From contig JANXUR010000043.1 in assembly GCA_025356095.1 (NCBI GenBank), positions 1-64,000 of the forward strand: 64,000 bases of DNA. The letters are read 5' to 3'. Below the pieces are notes generated by a model. The model saw only the letters and a program-made list of their open reading frames with translations, had not been told where the DNA came from and made no database searches. How positions within the stretch are numbered: position 1 is the stretch's first letter; the number at the start of each line of letters is the position of its first letter. The stretch is from Acidobacteriaceae bacterium. GTDB taxonomy: Bacteria > Acidobacteriota > Terriglobia > Terriglobales > Acidobacteriaceae. A program made the translations under genes and the position numbers. This document shows positions 18,189 through 30,850 of this stretch, one piece after another.

Positions 18189-19442
18189 TCAGCGTCTCGG
18201 CGGCAGGTTTTGTGTTCTTGTGCGCCGCAGTAGCATTTTCAGCGGTTTCAACGCGAGTCGCAACCAGCGCAGCGGATAGTACAGAACGTACAGTGAGTCG
18301 GGCAGGGCGAGAGCATTCCACTCGCCGGTTTCCGGGGTGGCCAGCAGGCGCCACGCAAAGCTTAGCCGGTCGCTCCAACGTTCGCGGAGGCGCGGCATCA
18401 TCCAGAAAAAGCGCCATGAGTCAGCCGTGTAGCGAGCAGGAGCAGATTGCAGACTGCGCCAGAAGAGTGCCGCGAGGCGATTCGCGGCCGTGTTTTCATG
18501 AACGAATCCAGAAGCCCGATGCGGTCTGGCCTCCCTCTCGATTTCTGCCATGGCGGTGGCGACGCCTTCCGGATTTAATGTTGCTGCCAGCTTGAGCGCG
18601 ACCAGCAGAATCCGCACAATACCCAAACGCTGGGCCTCAACCGCAACCACATCCCAATTCAGGCTGCGAACGCGCAGCAGATCGGCAATGTCCGCAACCC
18701 AGCATAGCCTCGACCAGCCATGCTTACTGCCGTGCACGGCCAGCGCGAGTAGCATGTCTTCTGGCGAGAGCGTGCGCACAGCCATTCCGGCCAGTGGGAA
18801 CTCCACTGCACGCGTGATTAGCGCATTCATGCGAAAGTCAACGCTGAAGTAGTGGGGCACAATGCCCCACTCCAATTCCAGCCAGTTCCGTGAGCCCCAG
18901 CCATCGAATGCCATCTCGTTGTTCGAGCGGACGTAGGCTGCTTCTTGCGCGGGAGTGAACTGCTGGTTCGGTGCGAGGCCCAGTGCAATCATGCACTGCT
19001 TGGCGCGCGGCCAATCGTGTGGCTGAATCAGAACGTCCACGTCATGGAATTCGCGGAGTGGGTGCGAGCCGTAAAGCATCTCCGCCAGTACGGGTCCTTT
19101 GTAGGCCAAAGCCGGAACGCCCACCTCCTTCAGTGCGGCAAGCACACGCAACAACCGTTGGGTGAATTCCAGATTGCGGCGGGCGTTGGCTCTGGATTCG
19201 CGGGCAAGCGCCGCCAGCAATTCGGCGGGCGCGGCTGTCGGCTGCCTCTGCAGCATGGCGCCGAGCCGCGCCGATAGCCCGTGCGCATCTGCCAAATCTG
19301 CTACCCATTGCCAGTCAAACCCGTCGTCCGCACCCAGTTCTGGTATGGAGGCAGCGGCCAGTGTACCGCCCGCTGCCTGCACCAGCAGAGCGAACTCCGG
19401 CGACTGCGTGACGAGCGATTCCATTTTGGAATCAGGATTCAT
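18189..19442 (-). CDS. PF14907-type nucleotidyltransferase next to peptide-modification genes
   Basis: This 417-residue protein starts at ATG 19442 (AAGGAAG close upstream). The longer ORF to 19589 would run through the divergent promoter. The nucleotidyltransferase core is visible as YGSHPLREFHDVDVLI (about 124-139), with metal-binding D134 and D136 and a conserved K115. Members of this uncharacterised family are common in lasso-peptide and PqqD/HPrK-associated loci, where they are thought to modify the peptide or a carrier. Here the gene is divergent from the ABC exporter of the RiPP-like locus, sharing a 109-bp control region. Its role in that pathway is inferred from position and family. 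Confidence 0.8.
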   Translation of the reverse strand: MNPDSKMESLVTQSPEFALLVQAAGGTLAAASIPELGADDGFDWQWVADLADAHGLSARLGAMLQRQPTAAPAELLAALARESRANARRNLEFTQRLLRVLAALKEVGVPALAYKGPVLAEMLYGSHPLREFHDVDVLIQPHDWPRAKQCMIALGLAPNQQFTPAQEAAYVRSNNEMAFDGWGSRNWLELEWGIVPHYFSVDFRMNALITRAVEFPLAGMAVRTLSPEDMLLALAVHGSKHGWSRLCWVADIADLLRVRSLNWDVVAVEAQRLGIVRILLVALKLAATLNPEGVATAMAEIEREARPHRASGFVHENTAANRLAALFWRSLQSAPARYTADSWRFFWMMPRLRERWSDRLSFAWRLLATPETGEWNALALPDSLYVLYYPLRWLRLALKPLKMLLRRTRTQNLPPRR

Positions 19443-19470
19443 GCTTCCTTCTGGAGAATGTAACTTCTGG

Positions 19471-19482
19471 CCGTTGCAACGG
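19471..19482. promoter_or_regulatory. Perfect 12-bp palindrome, candidate operator of the RiPP-like locus
   Basis: CCGTTGCAACGG is a perfect palindrome in the 109-bp space between the divergent nucleotidyltransferase and ABC transporter genes. It lies where a -35 element would be for the TATAAT box at 19494-19499. Position and symmetry suit a dimeric regulator; no regulator gene is encoded beside it. Confidence 0.45.
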
Positions 19483-19493
19483 TGAATGAAACC

Positions 19494-19499
19494 TATAAT
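19494..19499 (+). promoter_or_regulatory. Consensus -10 box ahead of the ABC exporter genes
   Basis: TATAAT matches the vegetative -10 consensus and lies 52 bases before the ABC ATPase start. No good -35 at 16-18 bp spacing is seen; the palindrome occupies that place, which suggests activator dependence or repression. Confidence 0.5.
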
Positions 19500-19551
19500 A
19501 GGGTGTTTGCGGGCGGCAATGCTCGCAGCGTAGCAACAGCACACAGTACTT

Positions 19552-20403
19552 ATGGCATTCGAAGCGGTCATTCTCGATGGAGTTAGCAAGCGCTATCCGC
19601 GCGGTGGCGGCTGGTGGCAGCGCTGGCGCGGGGCTACTACTTCGCAGCCCGAATGGGCCGTGCACCAGCTATCGTTGCGGGTGGCGCCGGGGCGTGTTCT
19701 CGCCCTGCTCGGGCCCAACGGCAGCGGGAAGACGACCACGCTTAAGCTGGTCTCCACAATTCTTTTTCCGGAGCAAGGATCTGTTTTGGTAGCGGGCCAC
19801 GACACTGTGCGAGACGATGACGCCGTGCGGCGACATGTGGGCTTTGTGCTGGTGCACGAGCGGTCGTTTTTCCCCCGGCTTACCGCCAAAGAAAATCTCA
19901 ATTTCTACGCCGCGCTGGAAGAAATCCCCCGGGCCGAGCGCGCACGTCGTGTGGCGCAGGCGCTGGAACTGGCGGGGCTCGACCATGCCACCGGCAAGCT
20001 GGTGATGAAGTTTTCCAGTGGTATGACCCAACGTTTGGGGCTGGCGCGGGCGCTACTGAAGCGACCGCCCATTCTGCTGCTGGATGAGCCTACCCGAAGT
20101 CTGGATCCGGGCACAGCCGAGCAGTTCTGGCAACTGTTGCGCGGGCTGGGGCGGGAAGGTACGACGATTTTGCTGGCGACGCATAGTTTCACGGAAGCGA
20201 CCGCTGTGGCCGACGAAATCGCGATTCTGCAGCAGGGCCGGCTAATCCACCTCGATGATCGCCCGGTGCGCCAAGACGCAGCGGCTTTGCGCCAGCTCTA
20301 TTTTCAGGTGTGCGGACGCAATACGGGTGATTCGTTGGCCGCACCCGAATCCGTTCTTGTCCCCGGATCCGGTACGGATGACGCGATGCGGGGTTCCCAG
20401 TGA
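19552..20403 (+). CDS. ABC transporter ATP-binding protein of the RiPP-like locus
   Basis: This 283-residue ABC ATPase is of the ABC-2 (drug/peptide export) class. Walker A GPNGSGKTTT is at residues 54-63, the signature SSGMTQRLG at 155-163, Walker B ILLLDEPT at 174-181, and the switch His is H211 in LATHS. The signature has MTQ instead of the usual GQ. Its stop codon overlaps the permease ATG by one base (TGATG), so the two are translationally coupled. It probably powers export of the peptide encoded by the 56-codon gene downstream. Confidence 0.93.
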   Translation: MAFEAVILDGVSKRYPRGGGWWQRWRGATTSQPEWAVHQLSLRVAPGRVLALLGPNGSGKTTTLKLVSTILFPEQGSVLVAGHDTVRDDDAVRRHVGFVLVHERSFFPRLTAKENLNFYAALEEIPRAERARRVAQALELAGLDHATGKLVMKFSSGMTQRLGLARALLKRPPILLLDEPTRSLDPGTAEQFWQLLRGLGREGTTILLATHSFTEATAVADEIAILQQGRLIHLDDRPVRQDAAALRQLYFQVCGRNTGDSLAAPESVLVPGSGTDDAMRGSQ

Positions 20404-21224
20404 TGGCGCGCTGGATGCAGGCGGTGGGGCTTCTGGCTGATAAGGCCTGGGCGGTGCTGGTTCGCGAGATGATCACCGCTCTGCGTTATCGCGCTGGCTT
20501 CGTGTTAGCGGCACTCAGCCACTTAGGTGAACTGGCGGCCTTCTTCTTTCTGGCCCGTTCCATTGGCCCCAGCTACCGCCCCGAGGGTCACGAATATTTC
20601 CTGTTCCTGCTGGTGGGCACGGGCTTTTACAGCTTCCTGCTGAACGGCATCAGCTCGTTTCTGACCATGATTCAAGAGGCGCAGACCACCGGCACACTGG
20701 AAGTCCTGATGACGACCTCGACTTCACCTACAGTGCTGGTCCTGCTCAGTGCCATTTCATCGTTTCTGCGCAGCGCTGCGGGGATGTTCCTCTACCTCCT
20801 CGGCGGCGTGATTCTGTTCGGAGCATCGCTGAGCGCAGCAAATCCCCTCAGCGTGTTGCTGGTGCTTTGCTTTTCGCTACTCATCGTGGTGGGGTTTGGG
20901 CTCTTTGCCGCCGCAGTACAGTTGGCGATTCAGCGGGGCAGCGCCATCCTTTGGGTAATCGGCACTACCACGTGGATGGTGACCGGGACACTGTTTCCGG
21001 TCAGTGCGCTGCCGGATCCGATGCAATGGTGGGCGCGGGCGTTCCCCCTAACACAAGCACTGACTGCGATGCGGGCCGCACTGCTTTCAGGCACCACTCC
21101 GGCGCAACTGTTTCCCGAATTGGTACATCTTGCCGCTGGCAGCTTGCTGCTGCCTCTGGGGTGGCTCGCATTTGCCTTGGCGTTGCGCACCGCCCGCCGC
21201 CGCGGATCACTCGCTTACTACTAG
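20403..21224 (+). CDS. ABC-2 type permease of the RiPP-like locus
   Basis: This 273-residue integral membrane protein has about six hydrophobic segments. It is of the ABC-2 permease type (conserved VLMTTSTSPT cytoplasmic loop, GTLFPVSALPDPMQW near the C-terminal third, the usual FP...LP motif). ATG 20403 overlaps the ATPase stop; a GTG three bases earlier is also in frame. Together with the ATPase it forms a complete half-transporter pair. A 197-bp gap with its own -10 box follows before the precursor gene. Confidence 0.92.
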   Translation: MARWMQAVGLLADKAWAVLVREMITALRYRAGFVLAALSHLGELAAFFFLARSIGPSYRPEGHEYFLFLLVGTGFYSFLLNGISSFLTMIQEAQTTGTLEVLMTTSTSPTVLVLLSAISSFLRSAAGMFLYLLGGVILFGASLSAANPLSVLLVLCFSLLIVVGFGLFAAAVQLAIQRGSAILWVIGTTTWMVTGTLFPVSALPDPMQWWARAFPLTQALTAMRAALLSGTTPAQLFPELVHLAAGSLLLPLGWLAFALALRTARRRGSLAYY

Positions 21225-21355
21225 ATACTACTGGGTTTCGCTCCGCTTGCGCCGTCTCGGAATCGTTTCTGCTGGTTTCGCACCGCGATTCTCCCGGTTG
21301 TGGTTTGTTTTCCACAATGGTGCAAAAAGTGCTAGGTAGTCTTTCCCAAAATAGA

Positions 21356-21361
21356 TATAAT
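21356..21361 (+). promoter_or_regulatory. Consensus -10 box ahead of the precursor peptide gene
   Basis: TATAAT lies 61 bases upstream of the precursor ATG, in the only sizeable gap of the locus. No clear -35 hexamer is seen 16-18 bp upstream. A separate promoter would allow the precursor to be made in excess over the exporter. Confidence 0.5.
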
Positions 21362-21421
21362 CAGTTCCAAATTAGGCTTCGTTAAGCACGTATGCGCCTA
21401 TTTCCTTAAGGAGCTTTATTC

Positions 21422-21592
21422 ATGGAAAAGCAAAAAGCTGTTGCCGGAATCGTACCTGCCACTTCGGGTGCCCGCAAGCCGTACACCAAGCCGGAGTATC
21501 GCTACGAAGAAGTGTTCGAAACCATGGCGTTGGCCTGCGGAAAAACGCCAGCAGGCGGATCGCAGTGCAACTTCAACCGCAAGAACTCGTAG
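21422..21592 (+). CDS. 56-residue candidate RiPP precursor peptide
   Basis: ATG 21422 has an excellent ribosome site (AAGGAG at 21408-21413, spacing 8). The first half is leader-like and contains YTKPEY (residues 21-26), the YxxP-type motif bound by PqqD-like recognition domains in lasso and related peptides. The second half is short, small-residue-rich and holds two Cys (C39, C49) in CGKTPAGGSQCNFNRKNS. The residues just before C39 are ALA, resembling a signal-peptidase site. The last residue is Ser56, as in precursors phosphorylated by HPr-kinase-like enzymes. The gene overlaps the next one by 28 bp and is followed by a peptidase, a kinase-like protein, PqqD and a radical SAM enzyme. No known family is claimed. 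Confidence 0.8.
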   Translation: MEKQKAVAGIVPATSGARKPYTKPEYRYEEVFETMALACGKTPAGGSQCNFNRKNS

Positions 21593-22113
21593 TTCCCGCG
21601 TTGGGCGAAGAACGTGAAGCCAGCCGCTGCTTCTTGGCGGCCGAGACGATCCGCAGATTTGGCCAGTTGCAGTTTCGTGCCCATGGTACCAGTATGCTGC
21701 CGGCGATATGGCCCGGCGACGTGTTACAGATTGAACGCGTACCGCTGGAGCAGCCGGCGGTGGGCCAAATCTGGTTGGCATTGCGGAGCGGGCGGCTCGT
21801 AGCGCACCGCGTAGTACGAGTTCAATCGGTGGACGGCGATTTCGTGGTCTGGTTGCGCGGTGATTTTCTGGACGCCGATGACCCTGAGACGTTGGCATCG
21901 GATCTTTTGGGCCGGGTCACCGCCGTGGTTCGCTACCGGCAGACCCGAACCGCCGAGGTTCAAACGACAACTGTTTGTTGGTGGGGCAGGGTGTTGCGCG
22001 AGTACCACGCGCTCCGAGCGATTGCTCTGCGTGTGCATGGGTGGCGGGAGAAGCGAACGCGGATGTTGCCGGTATGTGCACAGGTACCGATAGAAACTCG
22101 GGCTCAAATTTAG
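21565..22113 (+). CDS. S26-like signal peptidase homologue, candidate leader peptidase
   Basis: The ORF encodes 182 residues. The GTG start at 21565 lies inside the precursor gene; a TTG at 21601 is an alternative. It has the S24/S26 nucleophile motif GTSMLPAIWPGD with S43 at residues 41-52. The general-base position reads RLVAHRVV, with H81 where bacterial type I peptidases have Lys, as in the ER/SipW type. A later GDFLDADDPE segment (99-108) also fits that type. No clear membrane helix is seen, so it may be cytoplasmic. It is probably the protease that removes the leader from the adjacent precursor. Confidence 0.82.
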   Translation: MQLQPQELVVPALGEEREASRCFLAAETIRRFGQLQFRAHGTSMLPAIWPGDVLQIERVPLEQPAVGQIWLALRSGRLVAHRVVRVQSVDGDFVVWLRGDFLDADDPETLASDLLGRVTAVVRYRQTRTAEVQTTTVCWWGRVLREYHALRAIALRVHGWREKRTRMLPVCAQVPIETRAQI

Positions 22114-22172
22114 TTTGGTGAATGGTAAGTTGCGCTGGCAGCGCCAGCGACGGGGAGCACGTGGGCACGATC

Positions 22173-22970
22173 ATGGCAGCCGCTGAAGTCGTGGTTGAAA
22201 TCGGAGGCATTGCCGTGCTGCTGCGTGCTGCTGACGAACGGCTTATGCCGTTGTTGCAGTCGCGCTTTGGCACTTTTGCGGGCAGCGGCCGCAGCCCCGA
22301 CTTTTTTTTCGACATTGAAGTGATTGACGGCTCGGCCCTCTCCGATCCGGACGCGGATGTGAGTGTGACCGCATCTGGCAGTCGCTGGCTGATGGAGCGC
22401 GGCGACTTTCGGGCAGAGTGGGATTCGCAGTCACGCGAAGGCCGTATCCGGCAGACTCTTACGCCCTACGCGATTGATTCCGTGCTGCGCATCGTGCACT
22501 CGCTGGCTTTGGCGCAAGAGGGTGGGTTTCTTCTGCATGCGGCCAGCGCGGTCCGCAACGGCAAGGCGTTTCTATTTTCCGGCGTTTCCACAGCGGGTAA
22601 AACGACGATCTCTCAACTCGCTCCGCCCGATGTTTCGTTGCTCACCGATGAAGCCTCCTATGTGCGGAAGAGCGGCGAGGCCTACGTGGCTTACGGCACT
22701 CCGTTTGCAGGCGAAATGGGTACACCGGGGGTAAACACCTCCGGCCCGATCGAGGCTCTGTACTTTCTCGGCAAGGGTGAGTCGAACCACTTTGAGGAAA
22801 TTCCCCGGCCTGAGGCGTTGCGCATGCTGATGCGCAATATCTTGTTTTTTGCTAAAGACGAGGAATTGGTCAACCGGGTGTTTGAAGGTGCCTGCGCGTT
22901 TCTGGATCGGGTTCCGGCGCGGCGGCTGGTGTTTTATCCCGATCAGCGGGCTTGGGACTTGATTCGATAG
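22173..22970 (+). CDS. HPr kinase-like protein of the RiPP-like locus
   Basis: The protein has 265 residues from ATG 22173 (GGGGAG 15 bases upstream); an in-frame ATG at 22122 and a GTG at 22161 are also possible. The P-loop GVSTAGKTT is at residues 137-145, followed by LLTDEAS (D159, E160), the HprK-type catalytic acid region. It is shorter than true HPr kinase/phosphatase (about 310) and lacks its N-terminal domain. Relatives in lasso-peptide clusters phosphorylate the precursor's C-terminal Ser; the neighbouring 56-residue precursor ends in Ser. That substrate is inference. Confidence 0.82.
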   Translation: MAAAEVVVEIGGIAVLLRAADERLMPLLQSRFGTFAGSGRSPDFFFDIEVIDGSALSDPDADVSVTASGSRWLMERGDFRAEWDSQSREGRIRQTLTPYAIDSVLRIVHSLALAQEGGFLLHAASAVRNGKAFLFSGVSTAGKTTISQLAPPDVSLLTDEASYVRKSGEAYVAYGTPFAGEMGTPGVNTSGPIEALYFLGKGESNHFEEIPRPEALRMLMRNILFFAKDEELVNRVFEGACAFLDRVPARRLVFYPDQRAWDLIR

Positions 22971-23046
22971 GTTATTGCCCCACCTTTGTGGGCCGAAATA
23001 GCTCAATTGTGCTCTGTGCGGGAGAGCATGTTGCCACTAGGATTGA

Positions 23047-23364
23047 ATGAGTATGGAGAGGAAATACATCGCGCGTAGTGCCCGCATCGCCGCCCGCCAG
23101 TTGGGCGACGAAATGATGATTATGTCGGCCGTGGACTCCAAGTTTTTTACTCTGAACCCGGTCGCTGCAACGGTTTGGCTGGCGGCAGATGGCCAGACGC
23201 CGCTGGGTGAAATTGTCACGCAGCGGGTGTGCCAGGAATTTGAGGTATCTGCGGAAGAAGCGTTACGGGATGCGGAAACCTTTGTGAACGACCTTTCGCA
23301 GCACGGCATTTTACTGGTGTCGGATCAGCCTATCGCGACCAACGCGGCAGGATACGTGGAGTAA
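23047..23364 (+). CDS. PqqD-family peptide recognition protein
   Basis: This 105-residue protein starts at ATG 23047; a second ATG at 23053 has better spacing to AGGA. It shows the PqqD/RRE fold signature: an initial basic strand, then DSKFFTLNPVAATVW (about residues 30-44) and a C-terminal helical part with the FVNDLSQHGIL pattern. These winged-helix domains bind leader peptides and present them to a radical SAM or other maturase. It sits 8 bp before the radical SAM gene, as usual for the family, and probably binds the YTKPEY motif of the 56-residue peptide. Confidence 0.9.
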   Translation: MSMERKYIARSARIAARQLGDEMMIMSAVDSKFFTLNPVAATVWLAADGQTPLGEIVTQRVCQEFEVSAEEALRDAETFVNDLSQHGILLVSDQPIATNAAGYVE

Positions 23365-23372
23365 GTGAAGTT

Positions 23373-24509
23373 ATGGGTCAACTGATCGGCGAAATGTCGC
23401 AACGAGCTCTTGAATTTGGCGTGCCTATCAACGTCCACTTAGACGTGACCTACCGCTGCAACGAACGCTGCGTGCACTGTTATCTCGACCACGATGACCA
23501 TGGTGAGATGACCACCGACGAGATTAAGGCGCTGCTGGATCAGCTCGCTTCAGCGGGAACCTTCTTTCTTACCTTCAGTGGGGGCGAAGTATTTCTGCGT
23601 AAGGACTTTCTGGAACTGGTCGCCTACGCGCGCAAGCTACTGTTTAACGTCAAGGTTAAGACGAATGCGGTCTTGATTAAAGAGAAGGAAGCGCGGCAAC
23701 TGCGCGAGCTTGGCGTAGAGCAGATCAACATCAGCGTGTACTCGCATCGCGCGGAAGTGCATGACGCGATCACACTGGTGCCGGGATCGTTCGTTCGTAC
23801 GGTTAAAGCAATTCGGTTTTTGAAGGAACAAGGCCTGAAGGTCACCATTGCCAACGTGTTGATGACGCACAATGCAGATGACTATCTGGGTGCCAAGCGC
23901 TTGGCTGAGGAGTTGGGTGTAGGGTACCAGCTTGACCCGACGATTACTCCCAAGATGGATGGCGACCGCTCTCTGCTGGCGTTGCGGGCCTCTGGCGAGC
24001 AGTTGCACAAAGTGTTTCGCGATGACGAAGTGGTGGGGAACTCTACCGAGTTCTGTGCTCCGCCTCCGGCGCCGGGGGACGACGTCCTCGATGGCATTCC
24101 GTGTAGCGCGGGCCACTCGGCTTGCTATGTTTCGCCTTATGGTGACGTATATCCTTGCGTGCAGTTTCCGTTGCCCAGTGGCAACGTGCGGCAGCAGAAA
24201 TTTTTGGATATCTGGCAGCATTCGGCGGAGTTGAACGAGGTGCGTGGCATTCGGGCGCGTGATCTAACTACATGCTCAGGTTGTTCGCACGTAGGAACTT
24301 GTACCCGCTGTCCGGGGTTGGCCTACATGGAAGGCAATATGCGAGGGCCTTCGGTGGCGGATTGTGAAAAGTCCTATCAGCGAACTTCGATTCCTTCGGC
24401 AAACATGCTTCGCTTGCAATCTCTAGGAGTTACTGGTGCAGTTTCGGCGCCGCTAATACAAATACATATCCCTGTCGTGCCGGCGGCGGAGTCCGGCGTA
24501 TGTCTGTAG
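23373..24509 (+). CDS. Radical SAM/SPASM peptide maturase
   Basis: This 378-residue radical SAM enzyme binds its SAM cluster through C29, C33 and C36 in CNERCVHC. The SAM-contacting GGE is at 70-72. A C-terminal SPASM domain for auxiliary clusters has cysteines C228, C244, C251, C262, C301, C304, C310, C313 and C331. Family members install C-C, thioether or similar crosslinks or epimerise residues in ribosomal peptides. GGAG lies inside the preceding PqqD gene, showing tight coupling. The likely substrate is the 56-residue peptide upstream. Confidence 0.93.
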   Translation: MGQLIGEMSQRALEFGVPINVHLDVTYRCNERCVHCYLDHDDHGEMTTDEIKALLDQLASAGTFFLTFSGGEVFLRKDFLELVAYARKLLFNVKVKTNAVLIKEKEARQLRELGVEQINISVYSHRAEVHDAITLVPGSFVRTVKAIRFLKEQGLKVTIANVLMTHNADDYLGAKRLAEELGVGYQLDPTITPKMDGDRSLLALRASGEQLHKVFRDDEVVGNSTEFCAPPPAPGDDVLDGIPCSAGHSACYVSPYGDVYPCVQFPLPSGNVRQQKFLDIWQHSAELNEVRGIRARDLTTCSGCSHVGTCTRCPGLAYMEGNMRGPSVADCEKSYQRTSIPSANMLRLQSLGVTGAVSAPLIQIHIPVVPAAESGVCL

Positions 24510-24512
24510 GAA

Positions 24513-24535
24513 CTCTCAATTACTTGGGTTGAGAG
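24513..24535 (+). other. Small hairpin between radical SAM and secreted-protein genes
   Basis: A 7-bp stem (24513-24519 with 24529-24535) is not followed by a T-run. It may stabilise or tune the downstream message, but is too weak to call a terminator. Confidence 0.3.
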
Positions 24536-24600
24536 AAATAAGAATCAGGTTACTGATCGAATTACCGATGGATCGCAAAAATCCTGTGGAGGAAAAAGCA

Positions 24601-26358
24601 ATGCTAAACCCCCGAAAAGCACTTCTATTCGCTGGCTGTCTTCTGATTTTGAGTCTCTCGTTTGTATCGGCACAGTCCACGTCTCAGTCACCCAGCGTGG
24701 TGCAGACCTGGAGCAGTAACAAGGTTCTGGTTTCCGGGTCGGGTCACGATGTGGTTGAGGCTGCCAAGACTAATCCGCGCGTCCAACAGGCACTGGCGCT
24801 TCGTGAAGCGGCGCGCACCGCAACCCCTCGCGGCATCACGCCTCCATCCGGCACTCCGGTGGAGTGGGCGGTCTCCCTGGGCTCGAACACCACTAGTCGC
24901 GGCGTGGCAGAAGCTGAATTCCCGGCCAAATATACCTCGAGTCTCACCCCGGTGTTCCCGGCCAGTTGCACTAACGACTTTGTCGTCTACACGATTTCCA
25001 CACCGAACGGCGTGGCCGCTGCGGCGGGCACGCAAGCGAATGTGGTTGGATTCAACAACTTGTACACCGGTGCCAGCGGCTCTTCTTGTCCCAATGGCCC
25101 CGGCGCTGCGGGCAACGCGACTACGCCCAGCTTTTTGTTCTCGTACGCGGCGGACGATGGCGGTATCTTTCTCTCCCCTGAATTGTCTCTAGACGGGAAG
25201 AAAGTTGCCTTCGTCGTCTCTTCGGTAAGCCGGCATCGTGCAATTTTCGAGGTTCTGACCTGGACCGCAGGGCAGGGCACCAACGCCACCACTGGCGCAG
25301 TGGCCCCTTCTGCAGGTTCACTGGTTTCGCTGGACTTCACCAATGCACGGGTTCCGGGCTGCAAAGGTCTGCTTACCGCCGATGACTTCGGATCTTCCCC
25401 TTACATTGACTACACCAGCGATGGTGCTTTCGTGGGCGCGAATAATGGCCGCTTGTACCACGTAACCGGCGTGTTCAACGGTACGCCCACGGTGGATTGG
25501 TGCACGATTGTGACCACAAACTCGCAGCTGACTTCGCCGGTGTATGACGCCCAGCACGGCAAGCTCTACATTTCCGACGGCGCCAAGGTGTTCTCATATA
25601 CCTTCAGCAGCGGCAGCGGTTTTGCCCTGTCGTCCTCCATCTCGGTGGGTGCCAACAAGGGCTACACCAATCCTTCGATTGTGGATTCGGTTTCAGTAGA
25701 TCCGTTTAACGGTTGGGTATACATTGCGGCGTCAGCAAACCTGGCCAACACGGCCCCAATTATTTCGCAGATGCCACTGGATCTGAGTTCACATGCGGAT
25801 CTGCCTCTGGGCAATGCTGCGGCAACCAGCTATGTGCTGGGCGCGAACTTTGACAACGCTTACCTGACCACTGGGCCCTCGGCGGGAAAACTATATGCCT
25901 GCGGCGTTTCCCCGACCAACCCGGCGGTGCCAGCGCTGTACGCCACTGGCTTCAGCAGCACAGGCGTGATGTCCACCACGGCGACTCTTGCCGGAAACAC
26001 CAACCTGAATGCGGCGAGTCAACCATCCGGGCATTGTTCCCCCATCGTTACGGTCTACGATGGCACCAACGACCGCTTGTATGTTGGAACGGGGACGGGC
26101 ACCAATACCAACGGGTCTAACCTGTTGACGATGTGGTCCATAAACACACCCATTACCTCTAGCGCGACGGCCTGGACGGCTGAGGCCACTAATATGCTTG
26201 GCGGCACCAGCTCATTCGTGCTGGACTACCTGCAGCACTCTTCGGGCAATCCCGGCACTAACGGTATTTACTTCGGGACGCGTGCACAAAGTGCAGCAGC
26301 GCAGTGCGGCTCGAAGAACTACTGCGCGATTAAATTGACCGCCGACGCGCTACAGTAA
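24601..26358 (+). CDS. Secreted protein of unknown function closing the RiPP-like locus
   Basis: The protein has 585 residues from ATG 24601, chosen for GGAGG at 24588-24592 (spacing 8) and the signal peptide right after it (residues about 1-26). The longer ORF to 24529 lacks a good site. The mature protein is rich in Gly, Ser, Thr and Asn, with repeating SLDGKKVAFV, DAQHGKLYISDG and GTNDRLYVGTGTG segments that look like beta-propeller blades, and four or more Cys. I do not recognise a family. It lies 91 bp after the radical SAM gene and is followed by a hairpin, so it may be the last gene of that operon. Confidence 0.8.
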   Translation: MLNPRKALLFAGCLLILSLSFVSAQSTSQSPSVVQTWSSNKVLVSGSGHDVVEAAKTNPRVQQALALREAARTATPRGITPPSGTPVEWAVSLGSNTTSRGVAEAEFPAKYTSSLTPVFPASCTNDFVVYTISTPNGVAAAAGTQANVVGFNNLYTGASGSSCPNGPGAAGNATTPSFLFSYAADDGGIFLSPELSLDGKKVAFVVSSVSRHRAIFEVLTWTAGQGTNATTGAVAPSAGSLVSLDFTNARVPGCKGLLTADDFGSSPYIDYTSDGAFVGANNGRLYHVTGVFNGTPTVDWCTIVTTNSQLTSPVYDAQHGKLYISDGAKVFSYTFSSGSGFALSSSISVGANKGYTNPSIVDSVSVDPFNGWVYIAASANLANTAPIISQMPLDLSSHADLPLGNAAATSYVLGANFDNAYLTTGPSAGKLYACGVSPTNPAVPALYATGFSSTGVMSTTATLAGNTNLNAASQPSGHCSPIVTVYDGTNDRLYVGTGTGTNTNGSNLLTMWSINTPITSSATAWTAEATNMLGGTSSFVLDYLQHSSGNPGTNGIYFGTRAQSAAAQCGSKNYCAIKLTADALQ

Positions 26359-26381
26359 ACACGTAGCAGTTGAATGAAGCG

Positions 26382-26413
26382 ACGGCCCTTGAGGAGACTT
26401 CCTCAAGGGCCGT
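26382..26413 (+). terminator. Hairpin after the secreted protein, end of the RiPP-like locus
   Basis: A perfect 14-bp stem (26382-26395 with 26400-26413) has a GACT loop and is followed by a short TTCTCTGTT tail. The stem is strong, though the T-run is poor. Confidence 0.75.
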
Positions 26414-28117: not shown

Positions 28118-30463
28118 TTACTGGCCAACGCCGGTCAGGGTGAATGACTGGGGTGATCCGGGGTCAGCGTCGTTCAACTTCAAGGTTGCCGTCCGCGTAC
28201 CGGTGCCCAGCGGTTGGAAGGTCAGGGTAACGGTACAGGTGCCGAACCCGGCAAGCGTTCCGATGCAGTTGTTGGTTTGCCCGTAATCGGCCGCGTTGGT
28301 GCCAGACTTGGAAACGCCGCTGAAGGTGATGGGCGAGGAGCTGACGTTGGTCACTACCAGAGGCAGGGCAGCCGAACCGCCTAGCGCTACGGTGCCGAAG
28401 TTCAAAGAGCTCGCGGAGAAGGAAAGAGCTGTTCCAACGCCGTTCAGTAAAGATCCCTGAACTGCCAAGGTAAAGCTGCCAGTGTAGATAAGCGTAACCG
28501 TGCGGTTGCCCGTCGCGGACGGAGTAAACGTGACGTTGACGTGGCAGGTGGTGAATGCGCCCAGTGTCGCTGGTGCCAGCGGGCAATCGGTAGTGTAGGC
28601 GAAATCCGACTGGTTGATGCCGCTCAACACAATGCTGCTGAAGGTGATGGGCACGCCGCTATTGTTGGTGAAGTTAAAGACGCTAGGAGCGCTGGTCGCG
28701 CCAAGAGCGGTGGTGGCAAAGGTCAGGGTACGGGGTGTAAGGACAATCGGAATGTTGCCCGTGCCCTTGATAAAGGCTCCGACCGTCTGGCCATTCGTGC
28801 CCAAGCCAATATTGACCGCGCCCACAAAGTTGCCAGAAAGGGTGGGCGAGAAGGTGGCATTGATTGTGCAGGAAGCGCCCGCCGCCAGAGTTGCCGGGCA
28901 ACTGGAAGTCGCCGTCCACTGGTTGGAGTTGGGGCCGCTGATGCTGACCGTGCCCAGCGTGGCGGTGGTGGTACCGGTGTTCTTGATGGTGACCGCCTTC
29001 GGGGTGCCGCTGGTTCCGGCGGTGATTGTGCCGAAGGAGACGACTGAAGGCGAAACCGTGACGGCGGTGCCGGTGAGCACTGATACCGTGTTGGTGCTGG
29101 AGTTTGCGGTAACTAGATCGAGCTTGCCGTCGTTGTTTACGTCGCCCGTGCCAATCCAATCGGGGTTCAAGCCGACCGGGATGGCAATGCGCGTGGCGAA
29201 GGTTCCGTCCGCGTTGCCAGTCAGGATAGACAAAGTGTTGTCGCTGAAGTCAGCCGTTACCATGTCCAGCTTGCCGTCGTCGTTGAAGTCACCGAGGTTG
29301 ATGATCTGGCTATTGGCACCAGTGGCATTATTGGTGAAGGTGCCGAAAGCACCGTTGCCGTTACCGAGAAGAATGGATGCAAAGCTAGCGACAGTGGAAA
29401 CTACTAAGTCGAGCTTGCCGTCTTTGTTGTAGTCGCCCGTGACAACATAGGTTGGGCCAGCGGCTGTGGCGTAGTCCACTTTCGTTTGGAAGGTGCCGTC
29501 GCCGTTGCCGAGCAGGATCGAGACATTGTCTGAGCCGTTGTTGGCGGTGGCCAAGTCGAGCTTGCCATCCCTATTGAAGTCGCCGATGGTGACAGCCTGA
29601 GGCGAAAGGTTGGTGCCGTAAGTGGCCTGAGTTTGGAAGGTGCCGTCGCCGTTACCCAGCAGGATTGAAACGTTGTTGCTGCCGCGGTTGGCGATGACCA
29701 GATCAAGGTTGCCGTCACCGTTGAAGTCAGCGAAGACCGCAGAGTAAGGGCTGGAGCCAACCGAGTATTCCACATGGGTCTGGAAGGTGCCGTCGCCATT
29801 GCCGAGCAGCACCGAGATGGCATTCAAGCGCTGATCCACAATGACAATATCCATCTTGCCGTCGTGGTTGAAGTCGGCGCAGGTAAGCGCTACCGGGAAG
29901 CCTGGGACGGGATAGTTCACGCCAGCTTGGAAGGTACCGTCTCCATTGCCTTGCAGGTAGGTCATGGTGTTGTCTGGAGAGTTCAGGACAACCAGATCCA
30001 TTTTGCCGTCACCGTTAAAGTCGCCCGGAGAAGAGGCCTCGGGGCCGCTGCCAGTTACGATGTCGAGCCTCGCCATGTTGGGCGGTGCCTGGGTACCAAT
30101 CTGAAAGAATACGGCGTTGGAGTTGCCGCCGCCGGGTGCCGGGTTCTGCACTACTACCGAAGCCGTGCTGGCAGTGGCCAAGTCCGCCTTGGAGATTGCA
30201 GCGGTTACCTGACTCGAGGTGACAAATGTGGTGGTACGTGCGCTGCCATTCCACAAGACCGTGGCGCCGCTTACAAAGCCGGTACCGTTGATGGTGAGGG
30301 TGACGCCCAGAGCCACGCCAGCTTTGGACTGCGCGGGCGAAAGCGGCCAGTTAACGGTGGGGGTGGGGTTCGCGGCAAAGGCAGACGCGGCAAACAGTGC
30401 GCTACACACCAAGGCCAAAGCCGTCGCGCGAGCCACGGAAACACTACGATTGATCTGATTCAT
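28118..30463 (-). CDS. Secreted FG-GAP/VCBS repeat and choice-of-anchor-D protein
   Basis: The protein has 781 residues from ATG 30463, chosen for AGGAG close upstream and the signal peptide following (to about residue 30); the longer ORF is not needed. In order: an IPT/TIG-like domain (about 31-125), seven FG-GAP blades each with a calcium-loop type DFNGDGKMD motif and GNGDGTF end (about 130-470), then three choice-of-anchor-D (ASPM/SPD-2/Hydin-like) beta domains with one Cys pair each. It resembles adhesive or scaffold surface proteins. No sorting tag is visible at the C-terminus (FTLTGVGQ). Confidence 0.9.
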   Translation of the reverse strand: MNQINRSVSVARATALALVCSALFAASAFAANPTPTVNWPLSPAQSKAGVALGVTLTINGTGFVSGATVLWNGSARTTTFVTSSQVTAAISKADLATASTASVVVQNPAPGGGNSNAVFFQIGTQAPPNMARLDIVTGSGPEASSPGDFNGDGKMDLVVLNSPDNTMTYLQGNGDGTFQAGVNYPVPGFPVALTCADFNHDGKMDIVIVDQRLNAISVLLGNGDGTFQTHVEYSVGSSPYSAVFADFNGDGNLDLVIANRGSNNVSILLGNGDGTFQTQATYGTNLSPQAVTIGDFNRDGKLDLATANNGSDNVSILLGNGDGTFQTKVDYATAAGPTYVVTGDYNKDGKLDLVVSTVASFASILLGNGNGAFGTFTNNATGANSQIINLGDFNDDGKLDMVTADFSDNTLSILTGNADGTFATRIAIPVGLNPDWIGTGDVNNDGKLDLVTANSSTNTVSVLTGTAVTVSPSVVSFGTITAGTSGTPKAVTIKNTGTTTATLGTVSISGPNSNQWTATSSCPATLAAGASCTINATFSPTLSGNFVGAVNIGLGTNGQTVGAFIKGTGNIPIVLTPRTLTFATTALGATSAPSVFNFTNNSGVPITFSSIVLSGINQSDFAYTTDCPLAPATLGAFTTCHVNVTFTPSATGNRTVTLIYTGSFTLAVQGSLLNGVGTALSFSASSLNFGTVALGGSAALPLVVTNVSSSPITFSGVSKSGTNAADYGQTNNCIGTLAGFGTCTVTLTFQPLGTGTRTATLKLNDADPGSPQSFTLTGVGQ

Positions 30464-30850
30464 AATCTTGCTCCTGTATGTGACCCTAAAGCTGGGGTGG
30501 CCCGAATGCGAATGGCGAAGGTAACGGCAAATAACCAGTAACTTAATTCTGCCGCCCTTTGCCGGGGGTGTCAAGGAGGTTCAGGCTTCCTGCATCCAAA
30601 ATATTTCCCCGTAACTCCTTGATACCCTTACTCTTACACAACTGTTACAGTATGCCTGTTAGAGATAGCCAGCCCCGCTACGGATGACACTCCGCCCTTG
30701 CTTTGCGAGCCTGCTTGTACCGCGCTTGTACTGCAACGATTCCATGACTGCTGCTATTCTGCCGGAGCCAGCGGCACACCGCCATACCACGTCAGTGCGA
30801 AAGTGGTGCACGACCGGAGGCTTAGTATGTGACCTTTGGGGGATACGAGG
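30464..30850. other. 387-bp intergenic stretch before the FG-GAP gene
   Basis: Apart from the promoter at 30546-30574 I see no gene, strong hairpin or repeat here. The AT-rich part around 30600-30670 may hold upstream elements. Confidence 0.6.
30546..30574 (-). promoter_or_regulatory. Candidate promoter of the FG-GAP protein gene
   Basis: On the minus strand a perfect TTGACA (30574-30569) is followed after 17 bp by CAGAAT (30551-30546), about 83 bases before the start codon. Confidence 0.5.

Follow-up and report, generated by a model that had tools for sequence, protein, structure and literature searches.

The window analysed here is a stretch of 64,000 nucleotides from an Acidobacteriaceae bacterium (GenBank assembly GCA_025356095.1, contig JANXUR010000043.1, positions 1 to 64,000 of the forward strand). 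It carries an operon around a gene of 56 codons that belongs to a ribosomally synthesised and post-translationally modified peptide (RiPP) locus and not to a lasso peptide locus. All genes named in a preliminary description of the region exist, at or very near the positions given there; its range started at the start of the divergent nucleotidyltransferase gene and ended just beyond the gene of the secreted protein. Counts of named loci refer to the 79 loci found in a scan of GTDB species genomes, mostly labelled Terriglobia or Acidobacteriaceae, and most carriers are metagenome-assembled genomes. The locus consists of the following features:

18189..19442, minus strand: PF14907 nucleotidyltransferase-like protein, divergent, accessory (Pfam 182.5 bits, cut-off 31.2; linked in loci that have the core genes and the ATP-binding cassette (ABC) exporter)
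19552..20403, plus strand: ABC exporter ATPase (PF00005; same gene order in about 18 of the 79 named loci)
20400..21224, plus strand: ABC-2 type permease (PF01061), overlapping the ATPase gene
21422..21592, plus strand: precursor peptide of 56 amino acids (homologues in 30 of 150 family genomes; alignment of 93 distinct precursors; codon-position test)
21536..21589, plus strand: putative core peptide, first Cys to C-terminal Ser (residue pattern before the Cys; two Cys and terminal Ser)
21565..22113, plus strand: S26-type peptidase, candidate leader peptidase, overlapping the precursor gene (weak TIGR02228 match; conserved boxes)
22122..22970, plus strand: putative peptide kinase of the HPrK/PEPCK fold, alternative ATG start at 22173 (TIGR04249 38.9 bits; conserved motif; predicted structure)
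23047..23364, plus strand: PqqD-family protein, stand-alone RiPP recognition element (PF05402 54.8 bits, cut-off 23.4)
23373..24509, plus strand: radical S-adenosylmethionine (SAM)/SPASM maturase (PF04055 88.8 bits, PF13186 42.8 bits; CxxxCxxC and full SPASM cysteine set)
24601..26358, plus strand: secreted pyrroloquinoline quinone (PQQ)/BamB-like beta-propeller, putative partner protein (genome-wide co-occurrence; predicted structure, best Z 26.1)

Judged from its sequence and its relatives, the gene of 56 codons (21422-21592) encodes the precursor. As the preliminary description had noted, it has a clear ribosome site, AAGGAG, located 9 nt ahead of the ATG. Differences between the family members fall mainly on third codon positions (53,958, against 17,277 and 14,468 at the other two), as expected for a translated gene. 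Based on the alignment of the 93 distinct precursors, the leader carries the pattern KxYxKPxFRxExVFET (residues 19-34 in the window precursor), followed by the tail A-L-x-C-G-K-x7-C-x6-S. The putative core of the window precursor, residues 39-56, reads CGKTPAGGSQCNFNRKNS; Granulicella mallensis X5P3, one of the named carriers, has the core CGKISTIQAQCAHNRKSS. Calculated masses of the window core are 1867.84 Da for the linear form, 1865.83 Da for a form carrying one thioether, 1945.79 Da for one thioether plus one phosphate and 1943.78 Da for two thioethers plus one phosphate; for the G. mallensis core, one thioether plus one phosphate gives 2008.90 Da. Exactly two Cys are present in 92 of the 93 precursors, and the spacing is C-x9-C-x7 in 73. 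A terminal Ser is likewise found in 92, the exception (L183) ending in Gln, and Lys41 is the other strongly conserved side chain of the core. Upstream of the first Cys, all 93 precursors have Ala at position -3, and 88 have Ala, Ser or Thr at position -1.

Of the 150 genomes of the window's family, 33 encode the radical SAM protein and 30 the precursor, and all of these 30 belong to the 33 (Fisher p ~2e-28, ignoring phylogeny). On the genus level, each is present in 21 of the 79 genera of the family. The precursor adjoins the maturase in 25 of 32 maturase loci, and several of the remaining ones have a precursor elsewhere in the genome. Across loci the gene order precursor, S26, HPrK, PqqD, radical SAM is conserved. 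Gene comparison shows in this way that a conserved precursor is co-inherited with PqqD, the radical SAM/SPASM protein, the HPrK-like kinase and, in this lineage, the S26 protease; the recurrence across Acidobacteriota that the preliminary description proposed to look for is borne out for these genes. The description of one compact run holds as far as the presence of the genes is concerned, but the ABC pair and the nucleotidyltransferase are optional and not part of the core: roughly one in four named loci has them. No relatives were found in the viral contigs and plasmids searched. The contigs of four near-family loci (L144, L155, L169 and L200) carry the labels Burkholderiales, Ramlibacter, Nevskia and Pseudomonadota, which may come from misbinning or might reflect transfer. 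A decaying copy is seen in L092 (G013:C6:31000-47000), with an intact ABC pair, a nucleotidyltransferase split in two open reading frames (ORFs), a mere fragment of the kinase, a frameshift that divides the radical SAM gene, and neither precursor nor S26 gene.

The PqqD protein scores above the PF05402 cut-off and is linked to a conserved precursor family, as in RiPP systems with a PqqD-type recognition element; its nearest NCBIfam models are the lasso PqqD families, although these stay below their cut-offs. In the radical SAM protein, the Pfam cut-offs of both domains are exceeded and C29, C33 and C36 are invariant, as in radical SAM/SPASM maturases. By sequence profile, its closest solved structures are SkfB and PqqE. 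Given the two fixed Cys, thioether formation is the first guess for its chemistry. The S26 protein is of the Ser-His-Asp (archaeal/endoplasmic reticulum) kind and lacks an evident membrane segment. It has the GxSMxP, His-Arg and GDxxxxxD boxes of signal-peptidase-like proteins, with Ser43, Met44, His81, Arg82, Gly99, Asp100 and Asp106 conserved in 100% of 85 homologues, while the curated cut-off of TIGR02228 is not reached. Small residues at -3 and -1 are the pattern used by signal-peptidase-type enzymes. Together with the conserved S26 boxes, the residues at these positions of the precursor point to cleavage before Cys39.

The predicted structure of the kinase is a small HPrK/PEPCK-type fold (predicted local distance difference test (pLDDT) 90.5), matching PEPCK with Z 15.6 over 237 residues and, among the Foldseek matches, L. 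casei HPrK. Conserved residues are His139, Gly154, Gly159, Lys160, Thr161, Asp176 and Glu177, forming the motif H-x14-G-x5-K-[ST]...D-[ED], in which H, G, K and D are 97-100% conserved. In order and nearly in spacing they parallel the residues listed for the lasso kinase BsfK (H148, G163, G166, G168, K169, S170, D186 and D187), where the motif was shown to be necessary (PMC10368454). Lasso phosphorylations known before BsfK were all on the C-terminal Ser (PMC10368454), and the kinases PadeK, ThcoK and SyanK phosphorylate the conserved C-terminal Ser of their precursors (PMC9266682). The window system combines the same two elements, the His/P-loop Lys-Thr/Asp motif of lasso-type HPrK-like kinases and a Ser at the end of 92 of the 93 precursors. 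By analogy, terminal-Ser chemistry as in the lasso kinases is likely, and the near-invariant Ser next to a PF14907 gene makes lasso-like phosphate chemistry likely as a whole. According to work on pseudomycoidin, PsmN, an annotated nucleotidyltransferase, is required for the hexose on the Ser phosphate (PMC9266682), and the PF14907 protein may act on the phosphorylated Ser in a similar way.

The ORF of the secreted protein opens at TTG 24529; the likely start is ATG 24601, which is preceded by GGAGG and followed by a signal peptide. No Pfam domain is assigned to the protein itself, and its homologues show weak PQQ/BamB-type similarity. It is modelled as a beta-propeller (pLDDT 73), with the best Z of 26.1 to YxaL, followed by tetrathionate hydrolase and BamB. 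The propeller is present in 32 of the 150 family genomes, namely in 29 of the 33 with the maturase and in 3 of the 117 without it (p-values for this association ignore phylogeny), and it co-occurs in 19 of the 21 maturase genera, even where the two genes are unlinked (e.g., genomes G048 and G068). Among the named loci, 23 combine maturase and propeller and 18 combine maturase and ABC exporter. ABC exporter and propeller are found together in none of the 79; both are present in the window and in L081. A precursor next to a propeller, with no maturase within 6 kb, is seen in 22 of the 79, an upper bound because of contig ends. Because of this genome-wide co-occurrence and the linkage beside solitary precursors, the propeller was not treated as a bystander. 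The secreted protein of the preliminary description is thus present but not incidental, being a putative partner of the pathway that accompanies it genome-wide. Joint action of the mature peptide with such a partner is a suggestion drawn from co-occurrence and linkage only. Further downstream, a large ORF (28118-30574, minus strand) has a translation with repeated FG-GAP-like DFNGDGxxD segments.

The precursor model detects weak relatives in other Acidobacteriota families, with the pattern MKKxYEKPxIIHTEKIEARAVxCAKxDxxxCGxGPxxS. A second model built for this distant family matches in 56 of 396 genomes of the phylum, 51 of which lie outside the window's family. It recovers the window precursor with an E value of 3.9e-5, and each model finds the other family. 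Two Cys close to the C-terminus are common to all 51 distinct sequences of the distant family, and the last residue is Ser in 48, Thr in two and Phe in one. The pattern Y-P-E...C...C...S is common to both families. Among 45 distant loci, a related radical SAM gene is found within 6 kb in 27 and a gene for a gingipain-type C25 peptidase in 26, while no C25 genes were found in the loci of the window's family. Five distant precursors (L264-L268) seemed to be orphans. Their solitary status was rejected: each is located at one end of a 17-kb cluster that contains HPrK, PqqD, radical SAM and C25 genes. In these clusters, an ECF (extracytoplasmic function)-sigma-like gene and several further secreted proteins are located between the C25 gene and the precursor, and in several of them a secreted protein of about 400 amino acids ends directly upstream of the precursor. 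In L241 and L243, C25 and precursor genes alternate (C25, precursor, C25, precursor) ahead of the genes for the radical SAM protein, the kinase and PqqD, which gives the impression of one peptide per peptidase. At L235, a precursor and a C25 peptidase share a single locus with two radical SAM genes and three HPrK-like ones. A role of C25 as a simple Arg-specific leader protease was rejected, since several C25-linked precursors lack the arginine of EARA. Likewise, a missing local kinase was rejected as an argument against the Ser hypothesis, since kinase homologues are present elsewhere in the genome in all 11 distant-locus genomes checked that have no kinase nearby; of four family genomes that lack the system, three are without a kinase homologue.

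Based on these data, the following route is proposed. The PqqD protein would bind the YxKPxFRxExVFET leader and present the peptide to the radical SAM enzyme, through which Cys39 and Cys49 would acquire a single cross-link or two, most probably of the thioether type, with Lys41 as a possible acceptor. At the C-terminus, the kinase would place a phosphate on Ser56, and in loci that have the PF14907 protein this phosphate would be decorated by it. The soluble S26 protease would then cut between Ala-Leu-Ala and Cys to give an 18-residue peptide, which would leave the cell through the ABC-2 exporter in the window and in roughly one in four named loci, or else by another route. More tentatively, the mature peptide might not be a free-standing antibiotic and might instead serve a secreted partner as ligand, subunit or maturation factor. 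Candidates for this partner are the beta-propeller in the window lineage and, for most of the other Acidobacteriota loci, the gingipain-type C25 peptidase. The first half of the route is based on the conserved anatomy of the system and its characterised relatives.

Several observations weigh against this route. Four genomes with the maturase have no propeller, three with the propeller have no close maturase (one of these is 76% complete), and most propeller-carrying loci lack both the ABC exporter and the nucleotidyltransferase. The window kinase has Asp-Glu where the characterised lasso kinases, and also the distant homologues, have Asp-Asp. BsfK phosphorylates Ser3 and not the terminus (PMC10368454), so phosphorylation of the terminal Ser is not certain here either. 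For the cleavage step, the precursor of L122, a distant-family locus with an S26 gene, has Gln at -1, and in the distant family as a whole this residue is less constrained. Taking these points into account, we consider it fairly probable that the locus makes an unreported radical SAM RiPP by the proposed route, with the partner role as its more tentative part. The wider proposal is more doubtful, and we put it forward tentatively, with the balance somewhat against it: throughout the phylum, phosphorylated peptides cross-linked by radical SAM enzymes may form a class that is dedicated to large secreted proteins, as inhibitor, chaperone, ligand or subunit, with gingipain-type C25 peptidases as partners in most Acidobacteriota loci and beta-propellers in Terriglobia. 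If true, RiPP chemistry would here mature or control surface proteins instead of making antibiotics. A precursor paired with secreted peptidases or propellers would broaden the roles of RiPPs, comparable to the small subunit of amine dehydrogenase.

Another explanation is a conventional secreted bioactive RiPP of the sactipeptide or ranthipeptide type, antibacterial or a signal, with the propeller and C25 peptidase as co-regulated neighbours of unrelated function or as proteins of immunity or extracellular processing. SkfB as the closest solved structure of the radical SAM protein, the exporter adjoining the precursor in about 18 of the 79 named loci and the solitary extra precursors, which suggest a small peptide repertoire, are all consistent with it. 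However, a core with the same two-Cys spacing and the same ends is rather uniform for a fast-evolving toxin repertoire, the exporter is missing in many loci, and the propeller follows the maturase even when unlinked. This explanation is regarded as unlikely. A peptide-derived redox cofactor in the logic of PQQ or mycofactocin, in which core residues become a small cofactor used by the PQQ-like propeller, would explain the uniform core and the combination of PqqD, a radical SAM/SPASM enzyme and this fold. Against it stand the lack of a conserved Tyr, Glu-Tyr or Val-Tyr in the core, the variable residues between the two Cys and, for much of the phylum, a partner that is a C25 protease instead of an oxidoreductase; we consider it very unlikely. 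Least probable is an offshoot of the lasso pathway in which leader recognition, kinase and nucleotidyltransferase were kept, the cyclase and protease were lost or replaced and the radical SAM enzyme only does tailoring, which would fit the YxxP leader motif, the stand-alone PqqD nearest to lasso PqqD models, the HPrK-like kinase, PF14907 and the terminal Ser, but not a core without a conserved Asp/Glu ring acceptor, a whole genome without a match to the PF13471 transglutaminase-like leader protease and a run of ten proteins without an Asn-synthetase-like lasso cyclase.

Lasso membership itself was rejected because of the missing PF13471 protein; the absence of both lasso enzymes from the run, already noted in the preliminary description, and the recurrent gene set support its reading of a RiPP locus other than lasso. 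No known characterised pathway was found to account for the set either: no NCBIfam model matches the precursors of either family, and no description of it was found in the open-access papers searched, which covered SynChlorMet, RiPPs of Acidobacteria and the combination of C25 and radical SAM.

Compared to known systems, the phosphorylated lasso clusters (paeninodin, pseudomycoidin, bsf) have in common with the window a stand-alone PqqD, a YxxP leader, an HPrK-like kinase with His-Lys-Asp, a nucleotidyltransferase, an ABC exporter and a conserved C-terminal Ser (not in bsf), whereas the window has a radical SAM enzyme and an S26-type protease in place of the cyclase and the transglutaminase-type protease. 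In the SynChlorMet cassette (TIGR04248-TIGR04251, ScmC-ScmF), HPrK-related ScmC, PqqD-related ScmD and radical SAM proteins also occur together, but with two radical SAM genes against one in the window. SynChlorMet and other named cassettes were rejected because the NCBIfam matches are far below the curated cut-offs (ScmC 38.9/125, ScmD 25.8/100, ScmE 90.9/400 and ScmF 69.7/400). Sactipeptides and ranthipeptides (SkfB and relatives, SkfB being the closest solved structure) have a radical SAM/SPASM maturase and a Cys-containing precursor as well, while the window adds a stand-alone PqqD, the kinase, two fixed Cys and the terminal Ser. In quinohemoprotein amine dehydrogenase (QHNDH), the beta-subunit is a propeller. 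The maturation of QHNDH also involves a small cross-linked peptide, a dedicated protease and ABC export, and this peptide serves a periplasmic protein as its small subunit. Cross-linking is carried out by QhpD, a radical SAM enzyme, cutting by QhpE and export through QhpF (PMC7876137). The window run differs in having no haem subunit, a kinase and PqqD, and a different protease. No QhpD-type model is among the best 25 of 82 NCBIfam matches, and no QHNDH chains are among the 50 entries of the VIA list for the propeller. In QHNDH, a Trp of the small subunit becomes cysteine tryptophylquinone (CTQ), and Asp/Glu are the thioether acceptors. The core of the 93 precursors has no conserved Trp, Asp or Glu, and the window peptide is therefore not a member of that family. 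By analogy, the amine dehydrogenase small subunit nevertheless offers the closest working model for the peptide of this locus.

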